From NCBI GenBank assembly GCA_037042915.1, contig CM073194.1, positions 1,674,001-1,738,000 of the forward strand: a DNA stretch of 64,000 nucleotides, in the 5' to 3' direction. Positions 1 to 64,000 of the stretch are shown here, piece by piece (position 1 is the stretch's first letter; every line of letters begins with the position of its first letter). This DNA comes from Auricularia sp. M13 (lineage: Eukaryota > Basidiomycota > Agaricomycetes > Auriculariales > Auriculariaceae). The position numbers and the translations under genes are program-made. The notes under the pieces are model-generated. The model worked only from the letters and a program-made list of their open reading frames with translations, made no database searches and was not told the origin of the DNA.

Positions 1-2300
1 GCCCCTGCCGATGTCTCAGAATTGTCAAATTTGTGCATTTTGCGGCCCCCAGACCCCCTTAAATGTCCGAAAATTTTCGGCTCGCCAGTATCACGATGTC
101 CGGAAATCCAAATTTAACATCCAAAGACATATTCGGGGGTCCTGGTCCATGACATTGGCGAGGTTGGCACTTGGGCCTTCTGGATGCCACCACATAGTTC
201 TGACGCAGTTTAGGCGCGGGCAAACATTCTGCACAACGTGCACGTAGCCCTCATTAGCGTGCAGTACGTCCGTTACACTACATATCTGCTGCAGATACCT
301 AATCTATCACCTTTCCTCGCAGCGGTTTCTCCACCGACGCGTTCACCAACCCCAACGGTACGGGCGGCAACATCGTCTTCCTGCGCCTCTTCATAGATGC
401 TCTCGCCCTGCAGCCTTGCAATCCGACCTTCCTCACGGCCCGCACCGCCTGGATTCAGCCTAGTGCCAGAGTGCGGGCTTCCGCGAGCAGTGCCGTGAAT
501 AGGTTGCGATCCCGAGCCAGTGTCGTAAGAGTTACGGTTTCCCAGACCGGTCCCTGCAGCGTGCTGCCGCTTTTCACTTCGCGTTCGCGATGGACCTGAA
601 GGAAAGCTGAGCGCTGAGCCATGGGATACGAGGACGTGCGACGATCGTCCCTGGAACCAGGCGCCGCGATACTGGAAGTATGTAGTGGTTGCCCAAGCCG
701 GCAATAAAACGGCCAAACGCCACATCTGGAGTCGCGTGCTCGCGCACCTGGTGCACAGACATCTGCAGGCTCGGCTGCGGACTTCGACTCCAGCGAGCAG
801 CGATGCCCTTCTGCTCTTTCTAAGCCCTAGCCATCCAGGACAGAAACCAAGCGTCGCCGGGGTCGCGGTTGGAGATTTCCAGCGACGCGAGCATTTGGCG
901 TCGTGCGAGCGTCAACGCGGCCACCGAACCGCGTTTAAGAGCTTGTAAGCCTACGCCTACGGTCTATGCTAGGACCATGAGCGTGTATGTAGCTTGACTG
1001 GCGAATTTCGACGCGCCATAAGGCCGAAACCCGCAGAGAAATACTGTATGGGCTGGAAAGAACTGAGCCGTTGCCGCAACTGTGGTCACCGCATCAGACG
1101 ACGGCGAGCTCATTGATTACGAGCGGTACGCTCGCGAGCATTGATGGGATAAGGCGAGTTCGGGGCGAGGAATGAACCCCGATTCCCGAACGAGGCCCAG
1201 TTTTAGGCGGCGCAGAGCGGAGTTCGACACCGTGACGTCCGACGTGCTCGCCCGCTCGGCGACCTTGTGCTCGGATTTCCTCATTTCGTCACTCGCGGCT
1301 ACTCTGTATACGCTCGGCTCTGCATAGGCAAGAGTCGGTTTCGGATGGAAGCATGTTGTGGCAGGCCGAAGATTGGGTTCAAGACGTGAGCGGGTGTAAG
1401 CCAGACTGCTGCATAATGGTGGTCTTGTTGCAAGCGGACGCGTCGTTGGGCTCTTTGGACGCTGAATCTTGGGATACTCGGTATGAAGGCGTGCGCGCGT
1501 GCAGAGTTTACCAAGTGAAGTCTCGGGTTCGGTTCACGAGCAGTTCGTCATACAGGCAGCGCTGCGTGACCACAGCACTATAACGCTTGACAGGCTACAG
1601 TGTTAGTACATTTCTTCCTGTGCTGGCCTAATAATGATACCTCGTATTTTGACGCGAAGGAGCTCAGATATTGAAATTGTTATCGATATTCGTACGTCAT
1701 TCCCTTTCTCAAGATTGGCTAGATCGAAATTTCCCTCGACGATACTGGGAACAGGGGGCGCCTAACGCGTCGCACTCAGGCCCCGCAACACCGTCACCAA
1801 GGAAGTCGTCAAGTCCGTAGTTGGCGCGCAGTCGGCTCTTCGCGTCGACTGCGCATACGTTGTGCATACGCACGCTGTACGCGCGTCCCGACGAGGACCG
1901 CGCGAGCGTCCGCAAGCGACGCGACGTCGCACCTTCGCTCTTGCCGGAGTCTGACGCGTCAGGCGCAGTGGGTGAGCTGACGTGTCGACAGAGATACGGA
2001 CGTCAAACGAGGTCAAACGCCGGCAGTCAGAACGAGTACTCGGGGTGCGGTCTGCCTACACAGAACTGTCAACCAACTGTATGGGCCGCTAAGTTGCAAA
2101 AAAGACGACATGTCGAGAGCTGAAGACGGTGAGTAGAGCCTCCAGCACTGTTTCAGGCTAATCAGAGGTTAATAGGCGTTGCCAGCGCAATCAACATCGG
2201 AGTTTCCGGACTGTGCGAGGCGTGCTCTTTCTGTCAAATTCGGACGGCCGCAGTGACATGATGATCTTGACACGCCACAGCCGCAGCTCAGTACTGTGGC
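1..2300. other. No recognisable gene
   Basis: Open frames here are short, overlap on both strands and show no family motif or plausible intron-exon structure. The first 130 bases carry AT-rich words (ccgaaaatttt, attgtcaaa, gtgcatt) that vaguely recall the arms of the foldback element at 62.8-63.8 kb, but too weakly to call a copy. I see nothing else in this stretch. Confidence 0.6.
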
Positions 2301-2304
2301 GCCG

Positions 2305-2310
2305 TATAAA
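2305..2310 (+). promoter_or_regulatory. TATA box of NmrA-like gene
   Basis: A consensus tataaa lies about 55 bases before the start codon at 2365, a normal fungal distance. Inference from sequence and spacing only. Confidence 0.5.
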
Positions 2311-2364
2311 AGAGGGAAACGCGCCTCCCAGAATCGGCACTTTCGAATTAGCTGCTATATCGCA

Positions 2365-3626
2365 ATGCCCAAGTTCGCCCCCATCCAGAACGTCGTCGTG
2401 CACGGTGCCACCGGCAAGCAAGGTTTGCGAGTTCATGAATACAAACATCTCAGCACTCACTGACACATATCCCAGGCGGATCCGTAGTTCGCGCACTCTC
2501 CAGCTCCGGCTTCAAGGTTCGCGCTGCAGTTCGCGATCCCGAAGCTCCCAAGGCTCGGGAGCTGGCCGCTCTGGACAACGTGCAGCTAGTGGTCATCGAC
2601 CTTGAAGACCCCGACTCCCTCGTTGCTGCATATACAGACGCTGACGCGGTAAGGCCTACTTCGCGTACGCTTGGCCTATTCTCATCCGTCCCAGGTGTAT
2701 GCCTGCACGGTTCCAGGCCCGTCAGAAGTTGCTCATGGCAAGAGGATGGCCGACGCCTCGAAGGCAGTAGGCATCCGGCTTCACATCTTCCCGACGCTTC
2801 GGTCTGTCGAGAGGGTTACGAACGGCGAACTCAAGGTCAAGAACTTCGACGACAAGGCTATAATCGCCGACTACATCACCTCCCTCGGACTTCCTACGAC
2901 CTTCATTTATCTCGGCGCGTTCATGGAAAGTGGGTCCTTCAGATTATACTTCAGTTTGCATCATTCTGACGCGACAAAGACTTCGTGAACGTCCCGGGCT
3001 TCGCCAGCGTTAAAGAGGACAAGGTACACATCAACTTCGGCGCGGTAGAGACCTCTAGGAAACGTGTGTACCCTGATATTCTGCTTTACGCCCTATCTCA
3101 CGACGCGTGCCTTGGTAGTGCCGTTGCTGCACGCATCGAAGGACATCGGCCAAGTTGTCAAGATCATAGTCTCCCACCCGGACGACTTCGTCGGACAGAG
3201 CATCGGGCTCGGGAACGTGTCTCTGAGCGTGGACGAGCTGGCCAAGATCATCCAGAAGCTCTCCGACAGCAAAGCCGAAGCCGAAAAGGGGCCCTTGGTC
3301 CCGTCGGTACGTCCCTTCATTTTCCTACACATGGCCCTCCTCAATCAGCTACCTCCAGCATTTCCCCTTCGCGGAGTCGGCCAATAACACGTTCAAGTTC
3401 GTCAACGACGACCGCTGGGGTGGATACTTCGGCGATATCCCCGTTCCCAGTCCTCTGCTGAAGAGTGAGTCGCGACTATCCACGCGTATACCTGCAACCA
3501 TCGCTTACTGGCGCTGTAGAGCATGGATTCAAGCCGGCCTCCTTCGAGGACTTCGTCCGCGAGTCTTTCATCCCCCACTTCAAGTTGTCCGAATCGACGC
3601 GTCGGCAGTGCCCCTTCTCTCACTGA
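2365..3626 (+). CDS. NmrA-like NAD(P)-binding oxidoreductase
   Basis: Predicted 316-residue protein of the atypical short-chain dehydrogenase group (NmrA-like). Exons 2365-2422, 2476-2648, 2695-2929, 2980-3063, 3119-3306, 3359-3464, 3520-3626; the six introns are 46-55 bp and keep frame. The N-terminus has the dinucleotide-binding loop VVVHGATGKQG with its glycines split by intron 1. It is followed by the family block AVRDPEAPKARELA and a later YLGAFMEN segment. Such proteins act as NAD(P)H-dependent reductases or redox sensors; the substrate cannot be read from sequence. The gene is paralogous along its whole length to the gene at 41510-42764 and to the pseudogene at 6695-7799, with matching intron positions. 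It has no TM segment or signal peptide, so is probably cytosolic. Confidence 0.88.
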
Positions 3627-3992
3627 TTTTGTCCTCCAGTTCCGAGTCCGTCTAGTCGCCTTTGTTCCCCGCGGCTGTCCTGAGAGATGCCGCTAGGCCA
3701 CGTGAAGAGCACCTTGTATGTACGTTGTAGCCGCTCTTGGGAATTCATACGCATATCCCGCGCGATCTACTGAGGAGCAAGGCTCATGAAATCCATTCAA
3801 CTCCGCAACCTGTGACGTGGGCCTTTGCACATGCCCGCATTTGCTTGATATCTATTATTTTCGGAATGCCACACGGGCCTACTGTTACAAGACGTCTATG
3901 CGACTCTAACTGTTACACCGAAGCGATCGACCACATACGACCTTCACGACCAGCACCCCAGGGACATATGACACAAACAGCGGTTCTCACCG

Positions 3993-5915
3993 TCATCGAG
4001 GTAAGTACTCATCCTCGTCTTCAGACGGCGGGTATTGCTCATGTTCCTCGTAGCTGAGAAACGTGGGAATGTGCCACGGCATGGAGCGGTCGGTGGTGAT
4101 CGTCGACGGCGTGCGCGGTAGAGTGCCGTAGCTGTGCCAGGGCCCCAGCGGATCCATGGGCACCGCCTGTGTCGTCTCTCCGTGCTCTGCAAGCATGGCG
4201 TCCGCTGCGGCGGTCAGCGTGCCCACGAGCTCCGGGTTCGCAGAGTCGCGATTCCGCCGGCGGATATTCAGCAGCATGCGGTTGCCCAATATCGAGATGA
4301 TGGCGATGCTCGGGCCGTCGAGGAGTTCACGCTCGGGGATCTGAGAGTCGACATCGATGGAATGAGACCGTGGGGAACGTCAAGCGCGAAGAATGAAGGC
4401 TGTGTACATCACTTTGGGCCCACAGAATCCCCTCGGCGAGATATAACACGAGGATGCTGAATCCATTGAGCATTCGTTGGCGAAGGGAACGCCTGGAGAC
4501 TAGGAGGCTCACATGGCAAAGTATACTAGATTGTCACGCATGATGACGTGCAGGAGCGTCTTGCGCGAAAAGCGCACTCGCTGGTCATGCCGGAGCTGGA
4601 AGCAGACCTTGTACATAAGGAGTCCAAATGCGACTGCCTCAAATAACAGCACAGGGATCCTATAACCCAAGGTCTCAATGCACAGACACAGTAAGATGGG
4701 CGAATGGCGCACCAAACGACATACAGAGGGCCCGTCCCATTGATTGCCACGCACATCGTGAAACCAGGATATGGGTGGGCGGTCACTTCGCCACAACGAA
4801 CCTGGCATCAATATACATGATTTGACTTGCTCGCAGTACTCACCGCGCATGCGCGCCGCGTTGTATATGAACACGGAGAAATACGCGGACGTGGTGACGG
4901 CGAGGAAGGCCGTCATGGCGATCAAGAAGCTGCGCTTGTTCCCGTAGACCGCGTTGAGACGCGCGAGCAGGATGGACTGGGCGATCAAAATCTCCATCGC
5001 GCCTGTTACAGAATTCCGCGTTGAGTATACACACAAACAAAGCGCGGGGACCCTTGAGACGCACCGGACCACGTGTAGAGCCCCGCCAGCCAGAATTTGC
5101 CTGATCGGGGCGCGAGGTAAGCATCTGGAGACCCTGCGCGACCCTGCGGGCTTAACTCACAGCTGCAACAGGGGCAAGACCATGGCGAACGAGAGAGCGG
5201 ATTGCCGAGAGCGGGGAAGCGTCAGAAGCTGAGCCACGGAGACGCAGAGAAGAAGGCACGGACAACTGCGGGAGGTTTATCGTGCACGTTGTGAGCTGAG
5301 AAGGGAAGGATGCAGGGGGCGTGCTCACGAAATCACTTCCGATGGGGTGCAATTGCGCTGTGTGGAGAGGAAGAACGCCGCGATGTGAAGAGTGCGTCGT
5401 CAAGCATAGGGGAGACACGGCGTACCTGCAGTGTTGAAAGTCTCAGAGAAGATGGGGATGTATCTGTTCTGTTTACACGGCCGCGACTGCGTGAGAATTC
5501 CGCGCCATCAGAAGCGAACGCAGTGCTCAGTGCCCACCAAGAAGAAGAGTGCCGCTGGCCACGAGAACCGGCCATGCTGGGCGACGAGTTCAGTTCTCAT
5601 GCGCGCGACACGAGGAGGAGGGTGACGTACCCAGAAGAACTCAATCTTGAAATGGGGAGCGGGCGCCGCGCCCGCCTCGTCAGCATCGCAACCAGGCACA
5701 AGGGCGACGAGCGCACCTCCTGGGGCAGGGTCAAAGCATAATCCCAGTACAGAAGCGAGGTCGCCGCGACTAGAAAGCGTTCGTGTCAACACTCAGAACG
5801 CGTCATACTCGTTGAGTGTCAATGTACCGTGCGAGTACTGGGCGGCCTGAAGGATGTGCGCCTTGCGGAACAGGCGGAACAGCTCCTTCAGCAGCTCGCC
5901 CCCGTCGCCGGCCAT
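3993..5915 (-). CDS. DUF6533-type multi-pass membrane protein
   Basis: Multi-exon minus-strand gene. The start at 5915 opens a short leader (MAGDGGELLKEL). Later exons give the DUF6533 signature: a WDYALTLPQE block, then LFFL joined across an intron to NRYIPIF. Further exons encode ILLARLNAVYGNK, a segment ending VVW joined to IPVLLFEAVAFGLL, and RDNLVYFAIILVLYLAEGILW. The hydrophilic tail is acidic near its end and stops at 3993. Several hydrophobic stretches alternate with short loops, as expected for this agaricomycete-expanded family of unknown function, probably in the plasma membrane. Introns at 4407-4341 and in the VVW/IPVLL and LFFL/NRY junctions are well supported. The exon between about 5160 and 5400 is uncertain because no splice choice fits all phases cleanly. 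Family assignment is from motif memory, not a search. Confidence 0.72.
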
Positions 5916-6694
5916 AGGGTCGAAAAGGAAAAGGGACCGGAAGACGAGCGTGGGCTATATACCAATCGCGAGTGTGTTGGTGTGCGTCGTGCGAGAGGTG
6001 CAAAACTGGTTTGTGTTTGCCCATTCCAATTCCAATTAGAATAGGATGCACGAAGGTGCCGGACAATGTGATCCGGAAAATCCTGGTTCTCTCGCGACGG
6101 CAACGGCGCGCGCCCTAAATTTCGCTAATATCACGAAGGCGCTGTGCCAGCTGGCATTGGTCCTTGCAGTCGACCACCGGTACACGTGTCGGGGACGAAA
6201 CGACGCTGTGGAGATTTTGTGCGCGCTTTTCTTTGGCAAGGGCGGGATCGATTGGCGTCGACTTCGATTGATCGGAAGAACCAAGAGTCAATCAGGTTGA
6301 CGATTCCGACGGAGCGGCCGAGCCGCAATACTTACTATCTGATAATATTACTATGGACTGAAATCAATCCTCCAGCATCCTCAGATGGCCGTGAAAGTCG
6401 GCATATATAAAGGTGGAACTTCGAAATTCGAGCCTTCCGCAAGATCGTATAATATGTAGGCCCTCGTGCCTGCAACCATCCTCTGCCCTGCATGCTGATA
6501 GAGGTACCATTACTATGATGTGATGCCGGATACATGCATTATGTGTTAGAGGTGCCTGGTCAAAAATAAGAAGCAAAACTAGGAGAACCGAGGCGTCGAT
6601 ATCTTCGCCCGCAATGACTAGCCTGACTGTGAATGCATGACATTACGGGTGTGCATGATAGTATATCCATTATCACTTCGAGAGCGAATGCGTA
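5916..6694. other. Intergenic, nothing seen
   Basis: No frame with family motifs, repeat or RNA gene was recognised. The stretch separates the 5' end of the DUF6533-type gene from the 3' end of the NmrA-like pseudogene. Confidence 0.5.
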
Positions 6695-7799
6695 TTAAGC
6701 AGCCATCTGAGGAAGCAGCCTCTACCGAACGTAATCCTCAAATAGGGACAGCTTGTATCCGTATTCTGCAGAGAGTCGATTAGTTACTAATGGTGCAGCG
6801 AACCAGTGTTGAGATGCGAACTCTCGAGAAGTAGGTCAGGACTAGGACAGCCTTTGTAATGGATGTAGTAAGTAGGGTCCGTTCAAAAAGGCCTTCAACG
6901 GAAGAAAGCTCTAGGATGAACATGCGTCAGCCTTTCACATCCTCAACCGGAAAGCGCAACGCACGGGCACATCGTCATCGAATGTAGGGTCGTCGACCGC
7001 CCGTGCCTTATGACCAGAGACGTTCTGGACGGTGCGGGCTTATCTTCCGGTGTTAGCTTCCTATCCGCCAGAGCAATTGCCTTGCCATCAAACTCTTCAG
7101 CGTGCGCAAGAATGATCTTGACGGCCGGGAATAGGTCCCGTTCCACCCAAAGCAGCCCATCTAGATGGCGTGAAAAAGACGTTGCACTCAGCCAAATAAA
7201 TGCTTACGGTTGACATCTGTGCAAAGACCTACATAGTGAACCTCGATGGTGTCCTAGTCCTCGATGAACTTCCATTGGTTTGGGGTATTGACAAGATCTG
7301 CATCGGTGAGAAACAACAGTCAACTTCCTGAAACGGGGGTGCGCGAGAACGACTCACTCTCCAAGCCGCCGAGGTATAGATCAGTGTATGGCATTCCAAG
7401 CGAAGCGACATATCCCGCGATCTCGGCTTTCTCTTCAAATTTCGGTACCTCGAGATTTTGAGTACCCTTGGCGAGTTTCTGAATGCTCTCCAGCGCGGAC
7501 CAGAATAGCTTTACGCCGGCCGCCTTGGCTGCGTCTGGTCTTTGCCGTGCGTGCTGCGCCTCATCCGGACCTGGAACACTGCACGAAAATACCTATGTGC
7601 ATGTAAGACGCACGAGAACTTGAAAGGGCATCTCGCACCTCTGCACGAACAGTATATCCAGCTGCCGCGAGCGCGCGAGCAACAAATCCGCCTGAATATG
7701 AACGGATACTTTGGTGATCGAAACAGTAGCATATACTGGCTGCTAACCTTGGAGACCGGTCAAACCGTGAACTACAACTCTATTAATGACCTGTGACAT
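6695..7799 (-). pseudogene. NmrA-like pseudogene
   Basis: A full-span but broken relative of the two NmrA-like genes. The ATG at 7799 begins MSQVINRVVVHGLTGLQG, close to the start of the 41.5-kb gene, and intron 1 follows at the same place. GGFVARALAAAGYTVRAEVRD is visible, then about 40 codons are missing before VFSCSVPGPDEAQ. KAAGVKLFWSALESI and AGYVASLGMPYTDLYLGG follow. Downstream a TAG interrupts the block after QWKFIED. VKIILAHAEEFDGKAIAL is intact. A frameshift separates it from QNVSGHKARAVDD, and a second TAG falls before RLLPQMAA, ending at 6695. Introns remain at conserved places, so this is a DNA-level duplicate rather than a retrocopy. It looks closest to the 41.5-kb gene and lies inverted relative to both intact copies. 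Confidence 0.85.
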
Positions 7800-8250
7800 C
7801 TGTTCTGTACGAGTAGGGGTAAGTGGTTGTGATGGAGGAACCCGTCGCAATTCCGGGGATGTAAGCACTGCTGTCCGCAATTTCTTCATTTTATGCACTC
7901 AGACTGCCCAGCACTTTCAGTTGCGCTCCAAAAACTTCTTCAGGCTCTTGGCACACCTCTTCGGTAGGGAGCACCCGGCGAGCTTGTGCCCTAGACGCCG
8001 GATGACGGTGACACTCGTAACTCGCGTTTTCTGTCTTGGCTGCACGCGCTATCGTTCGTTGTGAATTCCCAGGAAGCGTTCTATCCTCGAGAGTCTGCAT
8101 TAGTACCTATTAGGATATAGCATGCCAAGCAGCCCGGCACTCGCGATGGAAGGATGTGGGGGAGCACAAAGCGACCACGCTTTCCAACTCCGATCTCCGC
8201 CCCTTGTCTTGCTTCGCTCTCGTTGCATCTGGAAGCACAGAGTCCGCATC
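7800..8250. other. Intergenic between divergent units
   Basis: Contains the presumed promoters of the pseudogene (-) and ORC5 (+). The ORC5 frame is open upstream to 8122 but that part lacks family similarity, so the start was placed at 8251. Confidence 0.5.
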
Positions 8251-10203
8251 ATGCTAGCCTCATCTACGCTCGAGGCTCTTGAGGCCGCTCACCCTGGCCG
8301 CTCATCTATTATTCGCTCGCTCAGCGCCCTCTTTGCCTATCCCGAGACAGCACCGCCATTCCTGTACCTGCACGACGCGTTTTGCCCTCGGCGAACTCGG
8401 AATCTGTTGTCAGACATATTGGATGTCGTAGGCTCGAGAAAGGCGATCGTTGATGCGCGCATCTCTGTCTCCCAACGAGGCTTCTACGAATGTGTTTTGC
8501 GTCAACTCGCCAAGGGCAAGTTTAAAGAGTTTGCATGGGAGAAATCCTGGAGGGACAGCATTGATGGCTTCTGTACTGGCCTCCGCGCTATATTCGACAA
8601 GCAGGTCGTGCACCGAACTTCGCGCTCGCCCAAAAAGTCTTCTTCGAAGGGTAGAGCTGGCGCCAAGTCCAAGTCTCGATCCCCGACAAAGAAATCCACG
8701 CCGAAAAAAGTTAAAGCCAGGGAATCTGACGATATGGGTGACGATTCCATGGATGTCGATCCTGGGCAGTCCGATGAACGTGGCGCCGTTGTACTCGTCA
8801 TCGATTCAGCCGAGCAATTGCGCGCTCATCTTGGGGACATCGTTGTGCCTTTGACACGCCTCCATGAACTGGTAATATCATGTGCTTTATTGTCGTCTCC
8901 CTGACCCACATCGATAGGCACGAATTGACATCACGACTGTGTTCGTATCGTCAAACTCCTGGATGGACATGCAACCACCGTTTGCTGCGTCTCCCGATCC
9001 ATACTTGATTCATGTTCCGCTGCTGGACAAGGAATGTGCGTCAACCTGCAGGATTCTTTTTACGCAGTGTTAACGAGATTGCTCAGCTTTGATAGCCACT
9101 CTTATCCTGCCCTACGTGGCCACCTCATCAACTGCAATTGTTGATGGCCCGTATTCTCCGGTCCTGACGCCTCTATACCGCCGATTCATCGAATCGCTCT
9201 ACGCCACTTGCCATGCATTTGTGCGCGATACAGATGAACTGGCATACATTGCCGCATCGATTTGGCCTGCGTTTATTCGACCGATTATCAATGCTTGGGC
9301 TGCTCGTGACGAGCGAGCGGAATTTTCTCCTGCCATACTGCCCCCTGCGCCAAATGAAACGACGTGCATGCGGCTCATCGTCGTTATTACCTCCGCCTTC
9401 AACGTGGCACTGGACGCCCTCTACACGCGCGCGATGTCGCCTTCGGAGTTTGTCCTGCAGCACGTTGCACCACCGCTTGCCAACGTAGTCGTCTCTTTCG
9501 ATCGCGGTGATACAACTATTTCAACTCTTCCCGCGTCACCGACAAAACCGCCTAGGCGCGAAGCCCCAAAGCAGGACGAAGTCGAGGCGCAGTCGCTCGC
9601 AGACGAGTTCCCGCGGATGGCTCAGTTCGTGCTTGTTGCTGCGTATGTAGCGAGCTTCAACCCGCCGCGAAGCGACGTGCGCATGTTTTCGCGCACATCG
9701 GAAGAGCGCGGGCGCCGTAAGAGGGGCGGCGGTGGGCCGAAGCGCTCTCTCGTTGCTAAGGTCTGTTTTATCTACATCGCTGCACAACACCTGACCGTGT
9801 TCATCGTGTCTAGATCCCACCTCGTCTTGCTGGCCCGGCGCCCTTCCCTCTTGACAGACTCATCGCTCTGCTTGGTCGGTTCCTGGAGGACTACGATGTC
9901 CCACCCGACGAGGGCGCGCTCAACGTGCACGAAGTTGCTCGCGATCAAGCAGAGATGGATGTCGGTCGCGTGCAGACTCTTGGATGCGTGAGTCCGCTTC
10001 TCGCCCAACTGTTTTACACGCTCATTGTACGTTGACAGATCTCCGAACTTGCAACAATCCGACTTCTACATCGTGTAGGAAGCGTGGACAAAGCTCTGGA
10101 AAGCCCTCCCATGTTCAAATGCGGCATTTCGCACGCGATTGCACTTGCCCTCGCGAAAAACATCGGCGTTCCGCTTGCGGATTACCTCTGGGAGAACACT
10201 TAG
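8251..10203 (+). CDS. ORC5: Origin recognition complex subunit 5
   Basis: Predicted 583-residue nuclear subunit of the six-protein complex that marks replication origins and loads the MCM helicase. Exons 8251-8871, 8918-9035, 9087-9760, 9814-9987, 10039-10203, with introns of 46-53 bp. Visible family features are the N-terminal AAA-like region (RSLSALFAYPE, PPFLYLHD), a Lys/Ser-rich insert at about residues 130-165, the Walker-B-like VVLVIDSAEQLR, and the C-terminal ORC5 block FVLVAAYVASFNPPRSDVRMF followed by a basic RGRRKRGGGGPKR run. The last exon ends in a helical region typical of ORC5. A classical Walker A loop (GxxxxGKT) is not seen where expected: the corresponding segment reads YLHDAFCPRRTRN. 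The protein is somewhat longer than animal ORC5 (about 435 residues) because of low-complexity inserts. Confidence 0.87.
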
Positions 10204-59541: not shown

Positions 59542-62500
59542 ATGGGAGATAAGCGCCAGCTGTGGTGCCGGTACTGCGACAAGTGGTGGTACCGGCGGGG
59601 ATTCATCATGCATACCACTGCCTGTGAGGTCAAGCACCGTGACTGTGCAGCCAACGCCGTGCACCAGACTGGATCGGCAAGCGTTAAGCGCACGGAAACT
59701 GCAGTATTTATTCCCAAAGTCTGTTTCTGCCTCCGTACTGTGTCCGATTCTCACTCATTTTACCAGTCACCCAGTGCCATGTCCGTTGATTCCGCTGGTG
59801 CAGACAGCACCGCAGATGAGCCTCAGGCAACACCGTCGTCGGTTCCCCAGGACGACATATGCTATTTCAAGTATGTCTACCATCCGCATGGTTTGCTGGT
59901 GGACAAGATTGTCCCAGTGGCTGGGATGCCTGCTGCACCTGGCAACGTCCCTGATCGGCACCCACGGATCTCTGCTGCGCTACCTTGGGCTCCGTTCCAG
60001 TCCTATGCCGACTTCACGTTCGCTGAGCAGGCTACGAAAACACAGAAATCTCAAGACGACATCGACATTGAGCTTGGTTACATCCGCAAACTGTGGTCAG
60101 TTGGCGGCTCCGCGCTGTCTTTCCGGACGCACCGCGACCTGAATTATGCTTTGGCTGCCGCACAAAATCTGGTCGTCCAGGTGTGTTTCAGATATGGCTG
60201 TAAATTAACATTTTTGACCCCTGGACAGTTTCAACATGGATCAGTGTCGCAGGACTGGCGCGGCCGTAACATCTCCTTCGGCTTTGACTACCGTGACCCA
60301 TGGGAAGTCATCCTCAGCCTCGTAAAGGATCCTGTGTTGGCTAGTGTCTCAGAGTGGCATTCGTATAAGAAGATTCTGTTTGATAACGGGACTGAGGAGA
60401 TCTGGTACGACGAGCCCAAGAGTTCACTGCGCTGCTGGCAAATTGAGGTGAGCCAATGTATTCCCCGTGCAGTAGACTTGACCAACACCATAATTTTTCT
60501 GTACAGAGCACACTGCCTGACCGTGATCCCTACGAGCACGTTTATCTCCCTTATATTGTTTGGTCAGACAAGGGCAACGTGACGAAAACCACGACCGTCT
60601 ATCCAAGCCTATTCCGTGCTGGCTGGATTCCGGAGCCCATTCGAAATGGCTCTGGAAATGGCGGTGGTGTGCTCATTGTGCATCTGCCAGTTGTGAGTCG
60701 CTTTATAATATTAAGTAATACTTCTAATGCCTGCAGGTCAAACATCCTGATGGTCTTCCCGAGGAGAAGGCCGCCAAAGATCCCGAGTTCCGACTGTTCA
60801 AGATGCGAGTCTATCAAAAGGTCTACGCACACGTCTTTGCCACACTGCAAGACCCATCCTTCTACGGTCAGACCGTTCGATGTGGCGATGGAGTCACCCG
60901 CGTGTTGCACCCTGGGCTTTTCATTGAGTCCATGGATGCTGAGGAATCAGCATTCTTTAATGCTTGCAAGGCAGCATCAGCTAAATTCCCGTGCCCAAGC
61001 TGCCTTGTGCGTGACGACCAGTTGCATCTGATCAGTCGCTCCTTTGAGCAGCGGACGTCTGCGCGGATGAAGGCGATCTACTCCGATGCTCAGAAGATCA
61101 CAGGCAAGACTGCCAGAGAGGCTTTCCTCACCGAATGGGGGCTCAAAGATGTTGAGGTGTGTTTCTGTTTTTGTGCATGTACGCTTTCAAGTTCTCATCA
61201 TCAGCAGCAATTCCTTTGGGACTTCCACAACTCCGATCCTTATCTTGCACGGTCATACGATATTCTGCACTTTGATGACATAGGCAAATGGGGCAAACAT
61301 CTCTGGCTGATAGTCAAGGATGCGATGAAAGCTGGCGGACATGAGGATGCGATGAACCAGCAGTGCGTATTTCCAGCCATGTCTGTGCCAACTTCTCACC
61401 AATCAGTTTGAGGGAATTTCCACGTTTTCGAGGCCTAAAGCACATTCAGCATGCAACAGAGACTACGTATGCAGATGGAAATTGGTATCGTGATCTCCTG
61501 AAGGTCAGTTGCTGTTTGATTCTATTATCCCTCTCACCCACCACCACCTAGTGCATCTTGCCATGCATCGTGCAGTACTTGCCAAAAGACGACCCCCTCA
61601 TACATTGCATCAGAGCGTACACCAAGTACCGCATGATGGCAGGGCTTGAAGGTCAGACAGAAGCGCGTTTAGCGACTGTCAAGACTTTCATTTCAACCTA
61701 TGAGAAATGCTGCAAGGCAAGCTGTTTGCTTTACTCATATAATTTAATCTGAGCTGACCCACAGGGTGTAACGGCAAAATATGGCAAATCATTCGACTTC
61801 CTTAAGCAGCACATGACAGCGCACGTCGTTGACGACATTCGCCAAACCGGTAGTCTCAGCAACAAGACCACGCGCATCAATGAGGCATACATCCAGGAAG
61901 CCCGTGCACAGTACGAGAAGACAAATTTCAAGAATGCAGAACACCAGGTGAGCTGCCAATGTCACATTCATTCTATAATTTACACAATCCTAGATGTCTG
62001 AAAAAGACGCAAATATGGAAGCAGTTGCTTTCATCCGGATGGCCCTAAACGATCGCATTGCGGCAGCCGTGCTGCTCAACGAAGATGACGACAACGATGT
62101 GGAGGAGCAAGACACACCTCGTGCCTGGAAATTTGCTGCTCCATCTAGTGGCTGGCTTGACGCATACACATTCGAGCAGTCTCACCACCACAACCGCTTT
62201 TTCCAGGGCTTCAACTCACACTTGCGTGCAGCGCTCAGCCAGTCATTGGGGCATCCGTTGAGTGGGCATACTTCTGTGGAGGTCTGCTTTTGCTGTTTCC
62301 CGCTTGATGATCATTACTTACTATCTACAGATTAAATTCTACAAATGTGTGCACATCTACTACCAGTCGCAGGACGACCTTCGCCTTGGGCACGATATTC
62401 TCCACTGCAGCCCAGAGTTTCATGGTCATTCACGGAACGACTGTGTGATTTTCAATGACTCTGAGGGAGATTTGGGCTTCGCACGCCTTCACTCACTCCT

Positions 62501-62834: not shown

Positions 62835-62841
62835 CCCATGC
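62835..62841 (+). repeat. Target-site duplication, left
   Basis: cccatgc directly abutting the left end of the foldback element; repeated exactly at its right end. Confidence 0.7.
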
Positions 62842-63819
62842 TGTGGTATCCGGGATGACCGTGGACAAACCGCAAACCGCAAATTGATGCCCGGTCGACC
62901 TAAGCGCCGGGCGCACCGTTCACAACGTTTCCTCGAGGCCAACCCGGGCACAGATACGGGTTGCGTTGTGCTCACCGCCGTCGCCGGCGCCGGCGCCAAC
63001 GAGCTCAATGCACTTTTTTGACAATTTTCCGAAAATTTGACACCGTTGTGCTCAGAATGTCTTTCTCTTTGACGTGGAATCGACAAAAAGTGCTCAATAA
63101 ATGTCATTGTCGAGGGCCAGTGCGTTCTTTGGCTCGATTTTCCAAAGCTCGGCCCTTTCCGAAGGGTTCAAACCCCGTGGAAAAGCGCGACCGACGGCCG
63201 TTGAGGGCAATGGGATACAACATCTTCTTATACATGGCTCCTCATTTCTTCAAAGTTCTTCAAAGAACTTCAACAGACTTGCCTTTCTTGTGCAATGAGT
63301 CAGATTGTACATAAATCTCTGGTCCAGAGAGGATTTGATGAGTATTCAGCGTCCAAGAGTCTACATTTTCGACGATATCAGGAGAACGTAAACTCCTTTG
63401 CAGCATTCACAGGCAATGAGGAGCCATGTATAAGAAGATGTTGTATCCCATTGCCCTCAACGGCCGTCGGTCGCGCTTTTCCACGGGGTTTGAACCCTTC
63501 GGAATGGGCCGAGCTTTGGAAAATCGAGCCAAAGAACGCACTGGCCCTCGACAATGACATTTATTGAGCACTTTTTGTCGATTCCACGTCAAAGAGAAAG
63601 ACATTCTGAGCACAACGGTGTCAAATTTTCGGAAAATTGTCAAAAAAGTGCATTGAGCTCGTTGGCGCCGGCGCCGGCGACGGCGGTGAGCACGACGCAA
63701 CCCGTATCTGTGCCCGGGTTGGCCTCAAGGAAACGTTGTGAAAGGTGCGCCCGGCGCTTAGGTCGACCGGGCATCAATTTGCGGTTTGCGGTTTGTCCAC
63801 GGTCATCCCGGATACCACA
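62842..63819. mobile_element. Foldback element with 400-bp inverted arms
   Basis: 978 bp. The left arm (62842 to about 63247) is repeated inverted (about 63418 to 63819) almost base for base; visible differences are a few substitutions and a small indel (for example the run of t in acttttttgac and caccgttcac versus caccttTcac). The ends read tgtggtatccgggatgacc. Just inside lie repeated gcaaaccgc words. The loop of about 170 bases has no coding capacity, and the apparent frames inside the arms are mirror images of each other. It is flanked by a perfect 7-bp target duplication, cccatgc. This is a non-autonomous DNA transposon of foldback or long-TIR type; superfamily not recognised. The near-identity of the arms suggests recent movement or gene conversion between arms. 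Confidence 0.8.
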
Positions 63820-63826
63820 CCCATGC
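63820..63826 (+). repeat. Target-site duplication, right
   Basis: cccatgc, identical to 62835-62841. Confidence 0.7.
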
Positions 63827-64000
63827 AATGCGACAATGTTAAGCCTGCTGTGCCTTGGGGTTTGGTTGCAAGGATAGTCGAACGTCCGGGCGCAGAGAAC
63901 ACTCGAACGAACAACTAGAGCCTTCGGTGCGTTATTGAGCACACCGGCTACGTCGAGTAGCACGACCGAAGGGACCGCGAGCAGCAGAGGACTCAGACGA
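63827..64000. other. Window end, nothing assignable
   Basis: Continues the sequence interrupted by the foldback insertion. A minus-strand frame running off the window has no recognisable motif. Confidence 0.4.

Follow-up and report, generated by a model that had tools for sequence, protein, structure and literature searches.

A long-arm foldback element in Auricularia sp. M13, its relatives in the genome and the possible source of its transposase

What is a 978-bp sequence that consists almost entirely of two inverted arms, and which enzyme moved it? The question arises at the right-hand end of the window, the 64,000-nucleotide stretch of Auricularia sp. M13 DNA analysed here (C2:1674001-1738000 of an assembly of 52.1 Mb in 14 contigs, which was searched for relatives). 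The evidence set out below makes it very probable that the element belongs to a small, non-autonomous family of DNA transposons of the foldback type, bounded by terminal inverted repeats (TIRs).

Anatomy and coding content of the window element

A previous, sequence-only reading of the window had proposed a 978-bp structure of two arms, exactly flanked by a 7-bp duplication and devoid of genes. The structure was confirmed at 62842-63819, with arms of 405 nt and a loop of 168 bp, as was the exact CCCATGC flank, the match of which is not prolonged by the bases outside it. The parts of the element, in window coordinates, are as follows.

62842-63819: whole element, 978 bp, two inverted arms round a loop
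62835..62841, + strand: left target-site duplication CCCATGC, adjoining the left end
62842..63246, + strand: left arm, 405 nt; weaker pairing runs on to 63270
62842..62870, + strand: outer 29 bp, putative transposase recognition site, the same in 7/7 arms
62866..62879, + strand: two tandem CAAACCG units (CAAACTG x2 in both arms of the C10 copy)
63183..63203, + strand: inner arm block AAGCGCGACCGACGGCCGTTG, invariant in 7 arms and also present in a different repeat family
63247..63414, no strand: loop, 168 bp, no gene found
63415..63819, - strand: right arm, inverted copy of the left arm; 4/404 aligned positions differ
63820..63826, + strand: right target-site duplication CCCATGC, adjoining the right end

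The 405-nt arms make up 810 of the 978 bp, and the inverted repeat can be followed over 429 nt at 97% identity (14/429 mismatched). The ends read TGTGG..CCACA, the terminal sequence of the family being written in two forms, TGTGGTATCCGGG and TGTGGTATCCGGGATGACCGTGGACAAAC, and the tandem CAAACCG pair lies at arm positions 25 and 32. The strand folds into a single hairpin with an energy of -593.5 kcal/mol, whereas shuffled sequences average -155.1, and 0/20 shuffles fold as well.

Complete ATG frames reach 90 aa at most, and none of the eight stop-to-stop frames of at least 60 aa that overlap the element matches Pfam at E 0.1, which bears out the absence of a gene. All Rfam matches at the C2 element lie below their gathering scores: two weak matches to veev_FSE, one to mir-5345, and one to MIR447 (46.7 bits, gathering score 200) that was rejected as the typical yield of a long hairpin. 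The arm sequence GGTTCAAACCCCG looks tRNA-like; this reading was likewise rejected, since the tRNA search, which covered the C2, C5 and C10 copies, found none.

Other repeats lie close by. A Plavaka transposase exon is encoded upstream (60728-61411, Pfam, E 2.9e-14), and the foldback element starts approximately 85 bp past the last stop (62756) of that region. Together with the 160 KDZ matches of the genome, this exon would by itself point to a fungal source, probably a basidiomycete. The PlavakaA group has TGT..ACA ends and a 2-bp duplication (excerpt of PMC12730594); such ends fit the foldback element, but its family has duplications of 6-7 bp rather than 2 bp, and this candidate was rejected. 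On the other side, 10 bp to the right of the foldback duplication, a high-copy repeat begins at 63837 with TGTTA. It recurs at 33 or more other places, several of them in pairs about 7.9 kb apart, a spacing as expected for the LTRs of an 8-kb retrotransposon.

Copies in the genome and their insertion sites

A search of the genome with the left arm gave nine matches, corresponding to four elements (that of the window included) and one lone end; as the product of a DNA search, this count is a lower bound. The search with one arm, expected to find many copies if this is a family, brought up relatives with common ends in the genome, but not large numbers of them. The copy at C5:3571974-3575614 is 98% identical to the window element, whereas that at C10:3153794-3154770 is more diverged (84-86% in the arms, 82.5% overall). 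The C8 copy is partial, comprising the loop and the right arm, and is interrupted by a Copia element with reverse transcriptase, integrase and gag domains; no left arm was present in the 10 kb read upstream. The loop of the C5 copy holds a nested, short LTR-like element with two 200-bp direct repeats (3/200 differences) and GAGTC on both sides (positions 1988-4652 of the extracted C5 locus).

The lone end, 34 bp at C1:4322944 with one mismatch (position 28), is read as a remnant. No second end was found within approximately 20 kb at up to 4/19 mismatches, the weak inverted hits there having 5-6, and the sole CTCTACT downstream (4337254) does not adjoin an end. Eleven open frames to the right of it gave no transposase match, and two weak hits below cut-off, to DUF6596 and a fungal kinase. 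When the end sequence itself was sought genome-wide (32 bp, at most 3 mismatches), eight sites were returned, namely the seven family ends and the C1 end, and the reversed control gave 0; a further search returned only the same eight, with one reverse match in its reversed control. A 20-base query at 3 mismatches added C8:2373439 (3 mismatches), and its reversed control gave one forward and one reverse match; this site does not rise above the control level and was not accepted as an extra end.

Duplications can be read only at the three copies that retain both ends, and all three have one: CCCATGC (7 bp) in C2, CATTGG (6 bp) in C5 and GTTCTTC (7 bp) in C10, where a filler GTGT separates the duplication from the right end. 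Their form varies. With regard to the 7-bp duplication noted from the window, C2 and C10 (with its four filler bases) agree and C5, at 6 bp, does not, so the length is best stated as 6-7 bp. The true length may also be 6 throughout, if C2 and C10 contain filler bases.

The genome was also queried with joined flanks, and two of the three two-ended copies have paralogues that are free of the insertion. That of the C5 site lies at C5:2996974-2997475 (100% over 502 bp) and that of the C10 site at C10:3029170-3029690 (81%), which indicates that the element entered pre-existing sequence at both sites. For the window copy no empty site came up; its left flank matched itself only, among the 40 of 141 candidates scored. 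The duplicated foldback flank, at C5:2996974 and C5:3571722, lies within one contig and is identical over its 502 bp; a second duplicated stretch, C2:428000-433000 and C2:657500-662500, is 99.9% identical over 4964 bp. Both near-identical pairs are read as recent segmental duplication or as uncollapsed haplotype.

Long palindromes are a known assembly artefact, and the window element might in principle be an inverted duplication created by a chimeric contig. This is extremely improbable, because distinct copies elsewhere differ in their flanks and in their arm mismatches; moreover, some hold nested retrotransposons, the target duplication is exact and two sites exist without the insertion. The family shows common ends, 6-7-bp duplications and unlinked copies of different age. 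The proposal that the long-arm element is mobile and non-autonomous, and duplicates its target, is upheld by its relatives in the genome and by the two insertion-free paralogous sites.

Conserved ends and the likeness of arms within an element

The seven arms were aligned over 414 columns, of which 313 are invariant, 13 gapped, 11 in more than two states and 77 in two states; grouping of the arms was counted on the 77 gap-free two-state columns, the multi-state and gapped ones being excluded. Within an element the two arms differ at 1/405 positions in C5, 4/404 in C2 and 29/407 in C10. Between elements the figures are 6 to 9/404 for C2 against C5 and 55 or 65/404 for C2 against C10. Some copies of the family are young, the C5 arms differing at a single position.

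Among the two-state columns, 27 join both arms of one element (23 for C10, three for C5 and one for C2) and 0/77 join same-side arms of different elements. Thirteen others split C2 and C5 from C10 and C8, and 35 are private to one arm. Two odd columns, one grouping the C10 left arm with the C8 right arm and one grouping the C2 right arm with the C10 and C8 arms, are noise or homoplasy. The subterminal units follow the same pattern, as C10 has CAAACTG for CAAACCG in both units of both arms. Side-specific changes would be expected had left and right arms evolved apart, and there are none; the arms of each element are thus homogenised, as judged from the three elements that keep both arms. They could be kept alike through conversion, or through repair templated by the hairpin, around the time of transposition or replication.

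None of the outer 29 columns varies among the seven arms, and the lone C1 end is changed at position 28. If the 101 variable columns are placed at random among the 414, only 0.035% of 20000 trials leave the first 29 untouched, and 2.2% contain an invariant run of at least 29 anywhere. This conservation suggests that the outer 29 bp are probably a transposase recognition site.

Two inner blocks of the arm, alignment columns 147-174 and 346-371, are invariant as well. The latter contains the 21-mer AAGCGCGACCGACGGCCGTTG, which has 25 genome matches at up to 3 mismatches: seven in the foldback family, nine elsewhere at up to one mismatch and nine at 3 mismatches (the reversed control, likewise at up to 3 mismatches, gave no forward match and three reverse ones). 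The nine close sites outside the family, which have longer flanks in common, are these:

C2:430526, C2:659988, C2:4029880, C3:976087, C4:3240198
C9:390388, C10:3138802, C5:3791086, C10:3222035

One of the nine was read at length, together with its twin. The repeat there, in C2:428000-433000 and its 99.9% counterpart, is approximately 0.8 kb long; its ends read TGTCCC..GGGACA, and its inverted repeat measures 30 bp. The 21-mer is thus common to two otherwise unlike repeats, this one and the foldback arms.

Candidate transposases and comparison with known systems

In the proposed mechanism, a DDE transposase from another element would have recognised the outer 29 bp and mobilised the foldback element by cut-and-paste. 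The suggestion that an autonomous copy with the same termini might name this enzyme was not borne out, since no transposase-bearing element with foldback ends was recognised in the assembly; the source enzyme is absent from the assembly or unrecognised in it. Among candidate elements with readable ends, a minority of those considered, none matches the foldback end past its first bases. TG..CA ends with 6-7-bp duplications fit IS3EU/GingerRoot best, and an integrase-type transposase of that kind is the best single guess, although less likely than not; the rivals are MULE, P/Galileo and hAT7/KDZ.

A parent of the IS3EU/GingerRoot type (integrase-fold, Pfam rva_4), of which the foldback element would be a deletion derivative, is accordingly proposed only tentatively. 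The PF24764 domain is abundant in the genome (38 matches, 36 above cut-off). In one near-identical PF24764 pair (99.3% over 2943 bp) the likeness stops just after CCATA, so that the end, of which only the right-hand one is seen, reads TATGG, one base off the foldback TGTGG. In rusts, IS3EU has 6-bp duplications, TAYGG..CCRTA ends and TIRs of more than 30 bp (excerpt of PMC12730594), and GingerRoot has 6-bp duplications and now and then TG..CA ends (excerpt of PMC10045372). However, the foldback ends are unlike past the first bases, and the foldback end is absent from 15 PF24764 loci (about 3.4 kb each, two overlapping) at up to 3/16 mismatches; hits with 4 mismatches in 6/15 of these loci look like chance. 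Moreover, a 6-bp duplication is expected of this parent, and two of the three foldback duplications are of 7 bp and one of 6.

A Mutator-like (MULE) parent, as for Drosophila FB/NOF and nematode Tm1, is rather unlikely. MULEs often have long arms, and seven MULE domain matches, six above cut-off, occur in the genome. Nevertheless, MULE duplications are usually 8-10 bp, a range outside which the 6-7 bp of the foldback family fall, and the foldback end is absent from the seven MULE loci (about 3.2 kb each) at up to 3/16 mismatches, three loci being hit at 4. The loci's own ends were not found within the seven stretches cut out. Tm1 is placed in a 'Mutator/Foldback' family by the title of its paper, and for MuDR with IS256 the excerpt of PMC10045372 gives duplications of 4 to 10 bp. 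Another long-arm inverted repeat, at about C5 2825750-2826475, adjoins a MULE-domain locus; its ends, TA-CAGTCACGG..CCGTGACTG-TA, suggest by eye a Tc1/mariner-like class with a TA duplication.

The P superfamily was considered because Galileo fits the anatomy: it has long foldback arms and duplications typically of 7 bp, sometimes 8 (excerpt of PMC4168063). P-like transposase genes are indeed present at three places in the genome, in elements of about 6 kb each with CAAGGG ends:

C1:868246, about 2747-8655 of the extracted locus
C5:335041, about 2943-8913 of the extracted locus
C10:3217275, about 2709-8735 of the extracted locus

A P-superfamily parent was dropped as quite unlikely because the ends and 8-bp duplications of these elements (CGTCCACA, GGCAAGGC and GGGATACT) differ from those of the foldback family; the foldback end, too, is absent from all three at up to 4/19 mismatches, and their assignment to P itself falls below the Pfam cut-off. 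Against the P-type Pfam model the three transposases give E 0.08-0.27, and 0.013-0.027 in a second search, all below cut-off. Their conserved motifs, SDG and TDRLE, are suggestive of P-like transposases outside the reach of Pfam, and a profile of the three transposases found no match among the solved structures searched.

A hAT (hAT7) or KDZ parent is less probable still. Both groups have fungal members with 7-bp duplications (excerpt of PMC12730594), and the genome holds 28 hAT matches, 25 above cut-off, and 160 KDZ matches. Against this, the KDZ element Kyakuja has CA..TG ends and a 7-bp duplication but no TIRs, according to the same excerpt, from which the TG..CA ends and long TIRs of the foldback element differ. 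Two hAT loci were read, and the right end of one hAT pair reads CTAAAG inwards, not TGTGG. It is also unlikely that the family represents an undescribed fungal integrase-type lineage (TG..CA, 6-7 bp), with its autonomous form lost from this genome and its arms cross-copied at each move.

The few members of the foldback family allow arm homogenisation to be seen directly, and the family points to a missing transposase; unless an autonomous relative appears, its practical value lies chiefly in annotation. Foldback elements whose arms are very long can cause chromosomes to rearrange, as described for Galileo and inversions, and no title in the literature searched announces long-arm foldback elements in mushrooms.

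Among known systems, miniature inverted-repeat elements (MITEs) are short and non-autonomous, with terminal inverted repeats, a target duplication and high copy number. The foldback family shares the first four features; unlike in a MITE, its arms are most of the element, and the DNA search found only four copies and a lone end, a lower bound. With FB/NOF and Tm1 it has foldback architecture and non-autonomous copies in common, but FB arms contain many repeats and FB duplications are of 9 bp, whereas here each arm has two short CAAACCG units and the duplication is of 6-7 bp. Likeness to IS3EU/GingerRoot lies in the TxTGG end of the local IS3EU-type pair, the duplication near 6 bp and the abundance of transposase genes; known IS3EU ends are TA..TA, unlike the foldback TG..CA, a form possible in GingerRoot. 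Dada elements are without terminal inverted repeats and insert in small RNA genes (excerpt of PMC3706591), and are ruled out by the long TIRs; no tRNA was found at the C2, C5 and C10 sites, and no Rfam match at C2 reached its gathering score. Galileo, of the P superfamily in Drosophila, resembles the foldback family in its very long inverted arms, transposase-less copies and 7-bp duplication (excerpt of PMC4168063). Unlike Galileo, the family has other ends, no linked P transposase, a 6-bp duplication in one copy and no preferred palindromic target evident at its three sites. The earlier view that no family that could be named matches the element needs to be qualified by Galileo, with its long foldback arms and 7-bp duplications, and by fungal IS3EU, with its 6-bp duplications and TAYGG..CCRTA ends (excerpts of PMC4168063 and PMC12730594). 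Overall, the family is new and of low copy number, but the kind of transposon to which it belongs is known.
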